Origin: Paenibacillus sp. D2_2
GTDB lineage: Bacteria > Bacillota > Bacilli > Paenibacillales > Paenibacillaceae
Direction: 5' to 3'
DNA length: 64,000 bases
Assembly: GCF_031199965.1 (NCBI RefSeq)
Contig: NZ_CP133605.1
Span: 4,876,501-4,940,500, forward strand
The notes under the pieces were generated by a model. It ran no database searches. It was not told the origin of the DNA and worked only from the letters and a program-made list of their open reading frames with translations. The translations under genes and the position numbers were made by a program. Positions 20,497 to 30,578 of the stretch are shown here, one piece after another (position 1 is the first letter of the stretch; the number at the start of each line of letters is the position of its first letter).

Positions 20497-21479
20497 TTAA
20501 TCATGATTTTCAAAAAATATATAAAATGTCGTAGCCCCGTCGACAACCGACTCCAGCTTATATTCATGATGCAGCATATCAGCCATTTTCCTCACAAGGT
20601 ACAGCCCCATTCCTGTGGACTCGCCGAACCTTCGTCCATTTTCACCGGTAAAGAACAAATCGAATACCCGGTTCAAATCGCCCGGCTCGATGCCAGCCCC
20701 TTCATTCGTTATGCTAAGTACGACTACATCCCCACTATTTTCGCTATAACTTGGACTCTCTTACCTTGATCACTGTACTTAATGGCATTATTCATAACCT
20801 GGTACAGCATGATTTTCAACCATTTTCGATCTGTATAGACTGACAAATCACCTTCGATCGAGACGCTCGGATAGACGGAGCTGGAGATGAAGAAATCCTT
20901 CAAATCGTTGATCACTTCGGATACAGCTTCTCTTAACGGCACCTTCTCAATTCTAAGGTCTGCGGCAAAATCCTCTGTGCGAAGATAGGTCAGGATCTGC
21001 GATAAATTGTAATTGATCTTATTGACGGATGCTTGAACCTTAGCGAAATCCTCATTACCTTCATTCATCTGCGTAAGCATACTAATGACTGATACCGGGG
21101 TCTTAATCTGATGTACCCAGTGATTCAGCATCGTCTGATACTCTTGCTGTCGATTCTTCAACTGGTTCATCTGAGAATGATATAGCTGCAAATTGGCACG
21201 CATACTCTGAGCATAGGCTTCCTCCAAGCTCGAATGTGGATTCTGAATAAGCATATCCTCCGGCTTGGCCAGTCTGGAGGATAACTGCCCATACACCTTC
21301 CGATGCGTAAAATACCGGTAAAGAAGAAACAATGACAGAAGAACCAAGCTTACAAAGACAAAATACCCCTTTCCACCGACCTCAAATCCGTCCAACCAAT
21401 CATACACAAGGAATAAACCGAAGAATGTAACTAAATAAAGAACTACGATGGACAAATGGTCCTTGATAAACAACTTCAT
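20497..21479 (-). CDS. BceS-like intramembrane-sensing histidine kinase (frameshifted)
   Basis: Sensor kinase of 327 residues with two N-terminal helices joined by only a few residues and no extracellular domain. Such kinases sense peptide through their partner transporter. The phospho-accepting His is in LNHWVHQIKTPVSVI, the N box is YQVMNNAIKYS, and the G boxes GAGIEPG and GMGLYLVRKMA follow after the frame break. The break is near 20743: GCGAAAATAGTGG needs one more A to read AKNSGDVVVLSITNEG. The true end is TAA at 20497-20499. Its ATG overlaps the regulator's stop. Confidence 0.9.
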
Positions 21480-22748: not shown

Positions 22749-24322
22749 TTAGGTGGGGGTGTTCATTTCTCTCTTTTCTTTAAGCAACTGCTGGAACTCC
22801 ATCTCTAATTCTTGGGATGGCTCGATACTTAGACGGCTCAGCACCTCTGAAATTTTCGTCTCAAGTAAGAGGTATCGGTCTTTCTCCTCGTCATGGTTGC
22901 TCTTAGGTGGAGCCTGCTTCATCTGCTGATACGTTCCTTCGAACAGTTCAATCTTCTGATCACGAATCGTCAGAACCCGCGTAGCCACATGATCAATAAA
23001 GCGGCGATCATGTGAGACGAAGATGACGCTGCCTTCATACTCCCTCAGAAGAGACTCCAGCGCTTCTACGGCTTCCATATCCAGAAAATTCGTCGGTTCA
23101 TCCAGAATCAACGTGTTGATATCGCTCAGAAACAACTTGGTTAGCGCCACCTTCACCCGTTCCCCACCACTTAGCACAGAGACAGGCTTATAGACGTCTT
23201 CTCTAAAAAAGTGCATTCTGGCGAGCACCGTTCGTATCACCGTCTCCGTCTGCTTTGATGACGATTTTACATTCTCCAGAATCGATTTCTCCAAATCAAG
23301 AATGTTCAAATTTTGGCTGAAATAACCTGCCTTTAACGACGGAGAAATGGTCACTCCTACCTCTTGAGCAATGATCTTCTTCACCAGCGTCGTCTTCCCA
23401 CTGCCATTTGGGCCTGTGATCGCTAGTTTGTCGCCGCCCCGGATTTGAAAGCTTGCCCGGCACCACAATTTTCGATCGCCGATTCGACCAGCTACATCCT
23501 CTACACGAATAATGATCCGATTCATAAATGTATCTACATTCGGTAAATTCATCTTGAGGGGCGGAATCTCCCGTACTTTCTCAACCTTTTCAAGCTTCTC
23601 CAATCTTGTTTCTATCGCGGAGGCTGTCTGTTGTAGTTTCTTTTGTTTTTTGGCAAAGTAAGGCTTGGCTCCTGTAATCCGAGCTTCTGAATTACTTACC
23701 TTCTTAGGCGTCTTGGTTGCTCTTTCAGCCTTTCTCTCTTTCAGCCTCAAGGCTTCTTCCATCTGTGCCTTCTTCTTCTCATACTTATCATAGGCCGCTT
23801 GCTGCTGATCGTGCTCTAATTCCTTCTGCTTGAGGTAATCACTATAGTTCCCTACATATTCCTTCATTTTGCCTTCATGGATTTCCCAGATCGTAGTACA
23901 GAGCGCATCCAGGAATGCACGGTCATGGGAGACCACAATAAATGCCCCTTGCCACTCCCGCAGCTTCTTCTCGATCCACTCAATGTGCTGTGTATCCAGG
24001 TTCGTCGTCGGCTCATCCGCAAACAACAGCATCGGATCTCTGACCAGTGCCTGCTGAATGTATTCCTGTGTAATCTCACCGCCGCTTTTGGTTGTATCGG
24101 TCCGTTTGAGTTGAGGCAACAGCTCACTTTGAACATGCCTAACAACGTGCCCTTCTTCGGGAACAATCTTATTCGCTAAAATTTGCAGTAGCGTTGTCTT
24201 CCGCAGCCATTACGGCCCACCAAACCGATCCGGGCATCTTTATAAACTTGCAACTGGTCTATATCCAGCAATAAACGGTCCTGTACGTAATATTTGATAT
24301 GTTGTGCTTCCAATAAGAACAT
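22749..24322 (-). CDS. Vga/VmlR-like ABC-F ribosomal protection protein (frameshifted)
   Basis: Antibiotic-resistance ABC-F ATPase, 524 residues, the size of Vga(A). Two ATPase domains lie in tandem: Walker A GCGKTTLLQ and Walker B LLFADEPTTNLD in the first, GPNGSGKTT, VLSGGERVKVALTKLF and LILDEPTNFLD in the second. The linker between them (about residues 200-260, with KPYFAKKQKKLQQTASAIET) is the Vga-type antibiotic-resistance domain reaching the peptidyl-transferase centre. The expected substrates are lincosamides, streptogramin A and pleuromutilins, from family knowledge. Start ATG 24322 has AAAGGAG upstream. The frame breaks near 24204: GGAAGACAACG needs one more A to complete the first Walker A. 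A leader attenuator lies upstream. Confidence 0.9.
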
Positions 24323-24344
24323 ATGAACATCTCCTTTAGAGGTA

Positions 24345-24511
24345 GTTCAAGAAGTCCGCTTTTGATCACGAAGTGAATCAGGAAGCAAATTCGAGATCGA
24401 ATCTTGAATTCAGCAGGTCCTTCCGGTGCTCACGTACAAAAAACGTACGCTCCGCTCCTCATTCTCTGCTTCATCCAACCTTCTCGATGCTGAAAACCGG
24501 ACTTTTTGAAC
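24345..24511. mobile_element. MITE-like element with 19-base terminal inverted repeats
   Basis: The left end GTTCAAGAAGTCCGCTTTT (24345-24363) and the reverse complement of the right end, GTTCAAAAAGTCCGGTTTT (24493-24511), agree at 17 of 19 bases. The 167-base element has no ORF. Inside are AACGTACG-rich hairpins. It sits between the attenuator terminator and the ABC-F ribosome site, so the gene's leader is longer than normal. A partial copy is at 15862-15896. Confidence 0.75.
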
Positions 24512-24538
24512 ACCTACTTTCAATTTCGTGCAGGAGAC

Positions 24539-24578
24539 AAAAAATGCCTCCTATGTCCATACAGAATAGGAGGCATTT
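24539..24578 (-). terminator. Leader terminator upstream of the ABC-F gene
   Basis: On the minus strand AAATGCCTCCTAT (24578-24566) pairs with ATAGGAGGCATTT (24554-24542), a perfect 13-base stem with six T after it. It lies 220 bases upstream of the start codon, within the leader, and part of its left arm can pair with an earlier sequence (see the regulatory entry at 24645-24744). Confidence 0.85.
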
Positions 24579-24644
24579 ATATATAGGCGTACACCAAAAG
24601 AGACTCTTATAAGAATGCTCCTTCAGGTCCAACTATAGAAATCC

Positions 24645-24744
24645 AATCCTATTCTGAGAATTAACAATTGATGGCATCACGAATTAAGCAGTGTGAAACT
24701 GCTTAAAAAATTACCGTCAATTGTTCTCTTCAACAAATAGGATT
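24645..24744 (-). promoter_or_regulatory. Antiterminator switch of the ABC-F leader
   Basis: The arm AATCCTATT (24744-24736) overlaps the last two bases of the upstream ORF and pairs with AATAGGATT (24653-24645). Inside are a second stem (AACAATTGACGG with CCATCAATTGTT, one mismatch) and a hairpin (AAGCAGT with ACTGCTT). The downstream arm, CAGAATAGGA (24656-24647), is also perfectly complementary over ten bases to TCCTATTCTG (24571-24562) in the terminator left arm. A ribosome halted on the upstream ORF would cover the first arm and free the second to break the terminator. Confidence 0.78.
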
Positions 24745-24754
24745 AGTACTTCAT
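24743..24754 (-). CDS. Three-codon upstream ORF (Met-Lys-Tyr) in the ABC-F leader
   Basis: ATG AAG TAC TAA lies 34 bases after the promoter -10 box. AAAGGGTG ends 11 bases before the ATG, a slightly long but usable spacing. Its stop codon overlaps the first arm of the switch. Such tiny ORFs act as antibiotic sensors in leaders of resistance genes; here that role is inferred from position. Confidence 0.6.
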   Translation of the reverse strand: MKY

Positions 24755-24787
24755 TTCAGTTGGGTCACCCTTTCGTTCTTTTTATTA

Positions 24788-24816
24788 AGATTATTGTAAA
24801 AAGTGGCGGATGTCAA
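24788..24816 (-). promoter_or_regulatory. Sigma-A promoter of the ABC-F leader
   Basis: On the minus strand TTGACA (24816-24811), a 17-base spacer, then TAATCT (24793-24788). Transcription would start near 24780 and give a leader of about 460 bases before the ABC-F start codon. Confidence 0.75.
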
Positions 24817-25488: not shown

Positions 25489-26105
25489 TTGGATTGGAAT
25501 CAGAACAGAGGAACTTACTATGCCTTTATCAGCCTTGGAGCAATGTGCCAGACTGCACATCAATTAAATAGATTGGGACTGCGCAGATTTAGTGGTCCAC
25601 TTGATTGGTTCATTACCTCTTCTTCACCGAAACTTTGCCATCTTCTCAACACTGGGTTCAATGGATTTATGGAATTAAACAATTTGCGTCTTATAAACAT
25701 AGTCGATAATCATTATGTTTTACGTGATACATCATACCAAGTAGATTCGTATCATGATTTTCCCGTTCCTCATAATCCCAACCAACTCTACCCCCAGTTT
25801 AAAGAGCAAGTTGATCGCAGAAAATCCCGATTTTTACAAAAGATAAGAGCCTGCCCGTTTGTTTCGTGCGCACACATACTTCAAGCTCGGAGGCGCGGCT
25901 CCTAGAACAAGCTTTATATAACATTTCACACAGAGATTTCAGGATGCTCATAGTTAATCTCCATAATCAGCGGGGAAAGGGTGTCATTTATGAAGATTGG
26001 GGATTGCAACGCGTTTCTTCTGTCACAATTCCATCCGGTAGGGATTGGAGAGGTTCAAACCATCATTGGGATCTCATTATGAATGGGTTTAAAATTATGA
26101 CATGA
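25489..26105 (+). CDS. DUF1796 family putative cysteine peptidase (frameshifted)
   Basis: About 205 residues. The N-terminal motif ISLGAMCQTAHQLNRLGLRR with SGPLDW is diagnostic of DUF1796, a papain-like fold predicted from its Cys and a later His. The frame breaks near 25862 within TTTGTTTCGTGCGC; the second part reads FVRTHTSSSEARLLEQAL and ends with NHHWDLIMNGFKI. The likely start is TTG 25489. Biological role unknown. Confidence 0.82.
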
Positions 26106-28997: not shown

Positions 28998-30406
28998 TTA
29001 TTCGCTTTCAATGCCAAGTTGGTCTTTGACTTGTTGCTTGAAGTCTTTGATCGCACTGTCGCGATCCTTGCTACCTGCAGTATATTGACGTACTTGATCG
29101 CGCCAGATAGAGTTAATAGATTCGTCATACTGTGTCAAGTTCTTACCTGAAGCGTTAGCGTTAGCTGGAACGAATATGTCGAACATGTTTTGTCCGCCGA
29201 GCAAATCAATTTGGCCGTTCGATTTAGACATAACAACGGAGGATGCAACGCTATCTTTCGTGCCTTGCTCGCCGTCCTTCATCGTACCGTTAGCCCAGTA
29301 ATTTTGAAGGCCTGTGTCAGAAGTATCGAGCGTTACCCATTTAACAAAGTCAGCTACTGCCTGTTTCTTAGCGTCATCCTTAGTAACGTCCTTGTTAGCG
29401 AGCAACCATGTACCACCCAGAAGAAGCCTGTTGGCGGCTCAGTAACAGCCCAGTCGCCAGTTGTATCTTTAACATTATCTTTCATTACGTAGTTGATGAG
29501 CCATGCAGGACCGAAGAAACCGAATACTGGTTTAGGTCCAGTACCTGACATATCTGCAAACCAACCTTCCTGCCAGTCTTGAGTATCATTAAAGTAGTCA
29601 TTATCCTTCAACTTCTTAGCGAGATCAAGGAACTCTTCACGCTTCGGATCGATATGAAGCTTGCCATCGACAATCCAACCCTTGTCAGAACTGTTCTCGA
29701 TTGGGTGCCAAATGTCGCCGTCGCCAGATACGATACCATATCCTTTAGCTTTCAGCTTCGCAGCAGCTTCGAAGAACTTATCCCAGCCAGGTCCAACTTC
29801 ATTCTTGATTGCAGTTGGATCGTCCGTTCCAAATGTATCCTTCGCAAGTGAGCGGCGATAGATAAAGGCGCCACCAGTCGCTTGATAACCGAGGGCTTTC
29901 AGTTGGCCTTCTTTGCTACCGATATCAACTGAATATTGAGCGATGCCTGCATCCTTAACCATTTGGTCATCAAGACCCAGGTCAGCATAGTTTGCGGCAT
30001 AGTCGGATGCATCGCCTTGCGAATACTTAAGCACGAATGCAGATTCAGCTGCATAAATATCAGGAGCATCTTTACCGCCTCCAGCCAGAGCCTGGTCAAG
30101 AGCTGGCTGATAAGCGCCATCGGTAGTTGCGATTACTGTTGTTTTAAATTCAACATTTGCGTCTGGATGAGTTGCAATGTACTTTTCCGTCATGTTAGGA
30201 ATCTCGTCGGTGAAGCTCCAGAGATTGATAGTTACTTTCTCTTTAGGAGTAGTAGTAGTTGGAGCCGCGGCGTCATTGGTTTTTGGGGTTGTATTTGTGC
30301 CTGATGAACTTGAATCCTTTGTGTTTCCGCCGCCACACGCTGTGAGAGCAGATGACATCATGAGGACTAGAGACAGACCTACTAAAACACGTTTCATTTT
30401 TTTCAT
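28998..30406 (-). CDS. Extracellular sugar-binding lipoprotein (frameshifted)
   Basis: Family 1 solute-binding lipoprotein of about 470 residues. It begins MKKMKRVLVGLSLVL with lipobox LTACGG, followed by a Ser/Thr/Gly-rich tether. The start at 30406 has GGGGAGG upstream; an ORF opening further upstream is spurious. The frame breaks near 29417: TGGGTGGTAC needs one more G to give FWGGTWLLANKDVTKDD. It is the first gene of the operon, and a cre site overlaps its promoter. Confidence 0.92.
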
Positions 30407-30444
30407 ACTTTGCCTCCCCTTTTTTTCTTCATTCTTCGGTTTTA

Positions 30445-30467
30445 TGTAACCGCATACACAGATTATA
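30445..30467 (-). promoter_or_regulatory. cre site and -10 box of the second sugar importer
   Basis: TGTAACCGCATACA (30445-30458) matches the CcpA cre consensus with one mismatch and keeps the central CG. Immediately upstream of it, on the minus strand, TATAAT (30467-30462) is a consensus -10 box with a poor -35 (TTATGC). A repressor here would block initiation. Confidence 0.6.
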
Positions 30468-30578
30468 TATCCTATAGCCTCTAGGCATAAGGAACCTGTG
30501 TTTAGGGATAATTCCACTATTTTTGGATCTTGATCCTATAGGCGTAAAAGCGCGTTCATAAAACCTACTATTAAGCCA

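Follow-up and report, generated by a model that had tools for sequence, protein, structure and literature searches.

What does the DNA in front of a Vga-family ABC-F gene of Paenibacillus sp. D2_2 do, and is it a switch that an antibiotic can throw? We address this question in a stretch of 64,000 nucleotides, here called the window, in which the leader of the ABC-F gene occupies 24816-24531 of the minus strand and comprises a promoter, an upstream open reading frame (uORF), two mutually exclusive pairings, an intrinsic terminator and then an anti-Shine-Dalgarno (anti-SD) sequence. The leader is very probably an attenuator of the vga(A)/vmlR type, in which a ribosome governs transcription, with the drug, the stalling and the read-through carried over by analogy from vmlR; the basis provided by this analysis is its parts, homology, conservation, covariation and predicted switch. 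The window would extend a proven type of antibiotic-inducible switch to a Paenibacillus-like genome, and a silent, drug-switched ABC-F gene would escape tests carried out without drug.

Layout of the leader and its predicted switch

The leader, all of whose features lie on the minus strand, begins with a sigma-A-type promoter (24788-24816) that has the -35 element TTGACA at 24816-24811, a spacer of 17 nt and TAATCT at 24793-24788. Paenibacillus sp. GM2 (locus L075) likewise has TTGACA-N17-TAATCT 5' of the uORF, in otherwise differing DNA. The Shine-Dalgarno (SD) sequence of the uORF, AAAGGGTGA (24765-24773), is conserved in alignment A1 of related leaders and precedes the uORF itself, ATG AAG TAC TAA (Met-Lys-Tyr-stop; 24743-24754). 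Arm1, AATCCTATT (24736-24744), overlaps the uORF stop codon and forms the 5' side of the anti-antiterminator core. Starting 88 nt downstream of the arm1 start, arm2, CAGAATAGGATT (24645-24656), is the common partner of arm1 and arm3. Arm3, TCCTATTCTG (24562-24571), is the 3' side of the antiterminator, a 10-bp helix with arm2, and overlaps the left stem of the intrinsic terminator (24539-24578), which has a 13-bp stem (24578-24566 with 24554-24542) and a U-tract at 24544-24539. The arm1:arm2 pairing is only the core of the anti-antiterminator SL-1 (24629-24763), which also includes a uORF helix, an inner hairpin and a lower stem (24763-24757 with 24635-24629) that brackets the uORF start. Located 3' of the terminator, UGUCUCCUG (24539-24531) holds the anti-SD UCUCCU (24532-24537), which can pair either with the freed right arm of the terminator, AGGAGG, or with the SD of the ABC-F gene, AAAGGAG (24331-24337), in the hairpin SL-4.

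The promoter, three-codon ORF, arms and 13-base terminator described in a sequence-only reading of this DNA were all found in place when checked against the sequence, and four features are absent from that reading: the lower SL-1 stem, the anti-SD at 24537-24532, an inserted repeat at about 24517-24338 and a split in the ABC-F frame. A consensus promoter and terminator scan missed both the leader promoter, since TAATCT matches three of six positions and the rule asks for four, and the leader terminator, since the loop limit is 8 and the perfect stem here leaves a loop of 11; both misses are taken as a limit of the scan.

By analogy with vmlR, without drug a ribosome would read the three codons and depart, and arm1 would pair with arm2 in SL-1, leaving arm3 free for the terminator, so that transcription would end 5' of the ABC-F gene. 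If a lincosamide, pleuromutilin or streptogramin A is present, peptidyl-transferase drugs that prevent the first peptide bonds from forming, the initiating ribosome would stall on the uORF and cover arm1. With arm1 covered, the arm2:arm3 helix would form before the right arm of the terminator exists, and the polymerase would read through. The freed right arm AGGAGG would then bind the anti-SD CUCCU and release the SD of the gene, adding a second, translational layer of control. The vmlR uORF gives a toeprint 16 nt downstream of the A in its start codon (PMC9226507); applied here, this distance leads to 24738, and seven of the nine arm1 bases would be covered.

Predicted folds are in line with this scheme. 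The folding energy of the leader RNA has a z-score of -9.1 relative to shuffled sequences, none of 200 shuffles reaching it. When the nascent RNA is cut just before the right arm of the terminator and left unmasked, arm1:arm2 forms nine pairs and arm2:arm3 none; with 24754-24736 masked, the same RNA forms ten arm2:arm3 pairs and no arm1:arm2 pair. Arm2 thus moves from arm1 to arm3, which is the change that the sequence-only reading expected once the first arm is occluded, and a wider mask (24769-24738) gives the same outcome. With the complete terminator included, all three RNAs, masked or not, fold best into the terminator stem, and we therefore dropped the full-leader fold as proof of a switch. 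It follows that the switch has to be kinetic and that the decision must fall while the polymerase is between arm3 and the right arm. The order of the predicted folds is as expected of attenuation and is not proof of it. Of 20,000 first-order shuffles, 223 contain a perfect 7-mer repeat that encloses its own complement, so this pattern alone is evidence at about the 1% level, and it is conservation that secures the arms.

Conserved arms and a probable wider leader family

A search found 223 relatives of the ABC-F protein, and 80 loci were kept; six of 84 ABC-F loci were left out since no in-frame ATG start was found (L001, which is the window, L008, L019, L032, L056 and L069). We examined 79 ABC-F leaders including that of the window, 77 after two exceptions, of which 75 are distinct, and aligned 68 of them in A1, omitting seven long leaders and two duplicates. 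The uORF has exactly three codons in 77 of the 79 and two codons in L062 and L068. Codons 2 and 3 vary (MIY, MKY, MIN, MIH, MIC, MKN, MDC and others) at this constant length, which fits drugs that halt ribosomes at the start codon whatever the sequence.

The sequence-only reading gave one arm two exclusive partners, the second overlapping the intrinsic terminator, and this logic is borne out by the folds together with covariation in related leaders, where the arms are kept. Arm2:arm3 is paired in 98.5% of 680 cells of A1, compared with 35-50% for slid partners, and for six of its ten pairs one row or more shows a both-sided change, which none of 500 shuffles equalled. In L040 arm1, arm2 and arm3 are altered together, and in L054, L055, L058 and L080 arm2 and arm3 are. 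For the terminator, 88.9% of cells are paired, and both-sided changes occur in 12 cells (0/500 shuffles) and in three pairs (32/500 shuffles). Arm1:arm2 is paired in 97.2% of 612 cells yet nearly invariant; both-sided change affects two pairs (9/500 shuffles), and the other measures are equalled by 38-441 of 500 shuffles. Since this pairing is too conserved, we dropped its covariation as proof. An alignment-free test of the 75 distinct leaders agrees: cognate partners beat permuted ones for the lower SL-1 stem and for arm2:arm3 (0/2000 each), arm1:arm2 is borderline (166/2000), and two mismatched control pairs fail (1775/2000 and 729/2000).

Unprompted, RNAalifold on the 68 leaders returned three pairings: the antiterminator, the terminator right arm with the anti-SD, and the uORF SD with arm1, the last of them almost without variation; SL-1 was not among the pairings returned. 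One position of the right arm:anti-SD pairing is G-C in 38 and A-U in 19 of the 68 leaders. Counted by alignment column, as a regular-expression count omitted 22 rows, the joint states of right arm, anti-SD and gene SD at one position are GCG in 31 and AUA in 11 of the 68, the remainder being A-U-G in seven, G-C-A in six, G-U-A in six, A-C-G in five and two gapped. These states belong to the second, translational layer known from vmlR.

To look beyond ABC-F genes, the exact pattern of SD, three-codon uORF and arm1 was searched, and found in 4 of 148 genomes of the family and 15 of 344 of the order; the reversed pattern was not found among the matches listed. The genes 3' of these matches encode ABC-F proteins, Cfr, Vat(I), a Vgb-like lyase and Tet-like MFS pumps. 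Representatives of Cfr (551 bits, cut-off 530) and Vat(I) (424, cut-off 415) exceed their NCBIfam cut-offs, and those of the Vgb-like (374, cut-off 600) and Tet-like MFS genes (194, cut-off 475) fall below.

We built a covariance model, R1, from 12 exact-pattern leaders of mixed gene classes, with the window left out. Its sole match in the 64 kb of the window is 24776-24631 (39.8 bits, E 8.6e-8), and in a search of the entire genome (E up to 0.01) the window leader is again all that it finds. R1 gave 58 matches in 47 of 334 genomes in the order search, ten of them training leaders, and hit 70 of 398 genomes and 34 of 145 genera in the class search. From the latter, 80 match rows were examined, none of them used for R1, with G000, G046 and G067 (already counted) and one antisense overlap omitted. 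Two R1 matches, L169 (28.3 bits) and L144, look false or decayed. A scan of viral contigs gave one match, L115, which has no matching arms by eye and is taken as chance.

Each gene behind these leaders took its label from the reference protein that matched best in tblastn (E up to 1e-10, start within 1.2 kb). On this basis, R1 leaders stand before drug-resistance genes in 51 of 58 cases in the order search and 73 of 80 in the class search, compared with 0 of 58 control regions taken upstream of leaders from loci with at least 1.3 kb upstream; kinship of the genomes raises these and all other counts and permutation results. The 58 order matches precede MFS (17), Vga-type ABC-F (11), Vgb (10), Vat with Vgb (5), Vat (5), Cfr (2, as tandem leaders of one gene) and Lsa-type ABC-F genes (1), with none for seven. 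Among the 80 class matches are a second MFS type (30), Vga-type (19) and VmlR-type ABC-F (10), Vat (4), Vgb (3), LmrB-like (2), Vat with Vgb (1) and Cfr (1), as well as three Lsa-labelled genes assigned by tblastn alone and seven matches with none. NCBIfam and PDB checks were made on single representatives: Cfr of L244 scores 603 bits (TIGR04432, cut-off 550) and Lsa of L158 762.5 bits (cut-off 750), VmlR-type L213 has 6ha8 as its best PDB match (805 bits), and the Vgb, MFS and LmrB representatives are below curated NCBIfam cut-offs. Some labelled genes are remnants or broken, for example in L134, L140, L141 and L168.

L145 (genome G220) carries two tandem family leaders, 1501-1605 and 1713-1823, before one Cfr-like gene, with the uORF MYN in both. 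Vat and Vgb-like genes lie together behind one leader in L127, L146, L147, L148, L159 and L200 (in L200 in the order Vgb, Vat), and resistance to both streptogramin components may be switched jointly in these pairs. Family leaders in L165, L166, L170, L196, L209, L212 and L189 precede genes without evident link to peptidyl-transferase drugs, by eye GNAT acetyltransferases, a short-chain dehydrogenase, an alpha/beta hydrolase, a RibD/DHFR-like and an AraC-like gene, which are candidate resistance genes.

For a second model, R2, training was restricted to 11 MFS leaders, and RNAalifold supplied the structure; in this case it gave SL-1 including its lower stem. Tested at E up to 0.01 on 48 leaders outside its training and on 11 repeat-element loci as controls, R2 found the leader in 38 of the 48 and in none of the controls. 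It finds leaders of Cfr (one locus twice), Vat, Vgb, Vga-, Lsa- and VmlR-type ABC-F, LmrB-like and second-type MFS genes, as well as that of the vga(A)-like gene of Staphylococcus pettenkoferi (L073) and that of the window (30 bits, E 0.00046). The ten missed are the Cfr locus L244 and the ABC-F loci L002, L011, L018, L021, L029, L053, L107, L163 and L167. A match inside L003 (25.5 bits) is taken as false.

An energy-based search (-9 kcal/mol) finds a terminator after 126 of 138 leaders of the wider family, versus 13 when the same stretch is read backwards, and a perfect-stem search finds one after 62 of 131, with 15 in the control. Among 60 leaders with both a resistance gene and a perfect-stem terminator, arm2 prefers its own terminator over those of others (0/2000). 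The uORF has three codons in 124 of the 138 leaders, most commonly MIY, MKY or MIN, and 14 were not parsed.

Judged from these sequence comparisons, the window leader probably belongs to one widespread homologous family that would serve as a general sensor of peptidyl-transferase drugs before seven gene families representing five unrelated resistance mechanisms. That leaders of different gene classes are homologous is in itself no proof that every one of them works. These are target protection by ABC-F proteins of the Vga, Lsa and VmlR type, target methylation by Cfr, acetylation of streptogramin A by Vat and cleavage of streptogramin B by Vgb-like lyases (both also as vat-vgb pairs), and efflux by Tet-like MFS, TIGR00900-like MFS and LmrB-like pumps. 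Such a family would amount to a shared regulatory module for resistance to drugs acting at one ribosomal site, and it would occur on the vga(A) plasmids of staphylococci as well as in many other Bacilli. In that case every gene that follows such a leader becomes a candidate for a resistance gene, and it can be asked whether one set of drugs induces unrelated resistance genes by way of one RNA, and whether the unknown genes that follow the leader confer resistance. Our search of the open literature found no account of a single leader family shared by Cfr, Vat, Vgb, ABC-F and efflux genes, and an earlier description is possible; the leaders described in PMC10201436 (VmlR, VmlR2 and CplR) are treated there gene by gene.

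The gene behind the leader and rival readings

The sequence-only reading called the attenuator complete, which holds for the leader but not for the ABC-F gene behind it (22749-24322, minus strand), whose frame is split between two frames at about 24200-24150 in this assembly. The gene is whole in L075, L082 and L083. Its 3' part downstream of the split alone scores 729.8 bits with NCBIfam ABCF_Vga_all (cut-off 725), and the whole protein of L075 has as its best PDB match 7nhl, a lincosamide-streptogramin A resistance protein (750 bits). Between the anti-SD and the ABC-F SD, in the loop of SL-4, lies a MITE-like repeat of about 180 bp with inverted ends (24338-24517, minus strand), whose boundaries are approximate and derive from nine other copies. 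The repeat is missing at that place in L075, whose leader sequence is identical in L083, and in L082. Output in this strain may be impaired by the split frame and by the repeat between anti-SD and SD. The wider surroundings differ as well: in L075 the leader lies close behind an ABC permease gene (sugar type, by eye), and in the window some 2.3 kb, occupied by a methyltransferase gene among others, separate the ABC permease gene from the leader.

The leader could on these grounds be a relic that still terminates transcription, with the repeat and the broken frame leaving nothing useful under its control in this strain. In favour of this reading, a member of the same repeat family also sits in the leader of the sister genome L082, there at another place, between promoter and uORF; the repeat is high-copy, with at least 43 matches each in this genome and in G011 (40 scored of 327 and 330 first-look candidates), and two insertions near one gene are therefore not remarkable. 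G031 has at least 70 matches (40 scored of 222 first-look candidates), with several copies in tandem. We consider a relic unlikely, since the leader has its parts intact and the predicted fold has the repeat pairing with itself, as the loop of an SL-4 that stays closed. Moreover, the broken frame is not peculiar to the ABC-F gene. Eight genes allow a comparison with L075 or L082, and four of them are split in the window but intact in the relative, namely the ABC-F gene, a sensor kinase, a substrate-binding-protein-like gene and the gene at 25489-26090; this comparison omits a 427-aa ORF of L075 (best matches 34-36%) and two ORFs antisense to others. Besides the ABC-F gene, the stretches split in the window and whole in L075 or L082 are 29004-30532, 20500-21479 and 25489-26090. 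Genome completeness is 93%, compared with 99-100% in 36 of the 39 other genomes of the genus. Together these results suggest assembly indels rather than a loss specific to the ABC-F gene.

Two further readings concern what the leader senses and what its product is. With Lys and Tyr codons in the uORF of the window and of many relatives, the leader might be an amino-acid attenuator that senses a shortage of lysine or tyrosine, but just two codons follow the start, both vary while the length stays at three, and the downstream genes are mostly drug-resistance genes, so that this reading has hardly any probability left. Scarcely more credible is a stand-alone small RNA, in which the terminated leader itself would be the product. 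It is suggested by the name of an Rfam entry, ncr1575 (RF02452, "Bacillus sRNA"), which spans the window leader over the full model length at 32 bits (E 0.0079), below the gathering cut-off of 60. A scan of the window at the Rfam gathering score gave no match, and we dropped the statement that the leader is not in Rfam since RF02452 covers it below the cut-off and matches a VmlR-type leader. That match, L213 2302-2500 (minus strand), reaches 159.5 bits and precedes a VmlR-type gene, and the vmlR leader is a proven attenuator (PMC9226507); hence ncr1575 seems to be just another name for the vmlR attenuator, which suggests that its entry should be re-described as a cis-regulatory leader. The conserved arms and the distance to the downstream start also fit cis control. 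Further RF02452 matches below the cut-off are the Cfr leader L099 (46.9 bits) and the MFS leader L116 (42.1 bits); at E up to 0.5 there was no match in eight of ten family loci scanned, among them L075, L105, L113, L145 and L201. A ribosome-mediated attenuator of the vga(A)/vmlR type is the reading we retain.

Relation to known leaders

The L075 protein matches the structure of Lmo0919 (7nhn, 399 bits). The Rfam entry rli53, which we take to be the lmo0919/VgaL leader, did not match the window in an Rfam E-value scan that reached E 1; against the Cfr leader L099 it scores 27 bits (E 0.14). Like the window, the lmo0919/VgaL leader of Listeria monocytogenes has a short uORF and anti-SD elements before a Vga-like ABC-F gene (PMC10201436). 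Likened to the window by description, the cplR leader of Clostridioides difficile has a three-codon uORF (MRI there), an SD-sequestering terminator and an antiterminator, and differs in its clostridial host (PMC10201436). The uORF peptides given in the same source are MIN for VmlR, MK[L/Q] for VmlR2 and MR[I/M] for CplR (PMC10201436).

As described in PMC9226507, the vmlR leader of Bacillus subtilis has a tripeptide uORF in SL-1, an antiterminator, a terminator SL-3 and an SD-sequestering SL-4; losing the uORF start codon or its SD virtually abolishes expression, and losing SL-3 makes it constitutive. The window shares the tripeptide uORF inside SL-1, the antiterminator, the terminator and SL-4 with an alternative partner: its uORF is very short, has its own SD and starts within the anti-antiterminator, and a hairpin that can sequester the SD, with an alternative partner for the anti-SD, is present, the SD of the window lying beyond the inserted repeat. 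There are differences as well. By eye, the terminator of the VmlR-type leader L213, CTAATCCTTCC, differs from that of the window, and the shared arm would serve in another register. The vmlR leader has a mapped NusG pause site (PMC9226507), whereas in the window the NusG pause motif TTNTTT occurs only upstream of the inner hairpin; the motif lies inside 43 of the 68 leaders of A1, where shuffles expect 26%, and there is none in the interior of L075 and L082.

The window leader aligns at 60-80% identity to 26 plasmid records, 24 of them from Staphylococcus. On pVGA (NC_011605) the DNA identity is 68.7% over 97% of the query, with an annotated Vga(A) next to it, and the plasmid vga(A) leaders among the matches listed have 68.7-69.6% identity (E 3e-12 to 2e-13). 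Identity to the leader is 75.5% on a plasmid of Jeotgalibaca porci, where a Vga-family ABC-F gene stands next to the aligned stretch. Experiments on the vga(A) leader were reported by Vimberg 2020, as cited in PMC12421871. One contig with such a leader, L067 (NZ_BMTT01000052.1, 4.2 kb), is titled Streptomyces mutabilis, and its vga(A)-like gene and leader are nearly identical to those of S. pettenkoferi L073; it is possibly contamination. Taken together, the DNA of the window leader is homologous to that of the staphylococcal vga(A)/vga(A)LC leader, and L067 and L073 share its arms and terminator in A1. The staphylococcal type differs in its uORF, which is MIN in L067 and L073 and MKY in the window, and in having no repeat insertion. 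As far as such DNA likeness can place it, the leader joins the known vga(A)/vmlR kind as a homologue of the staphylococcal vga(A) leader.
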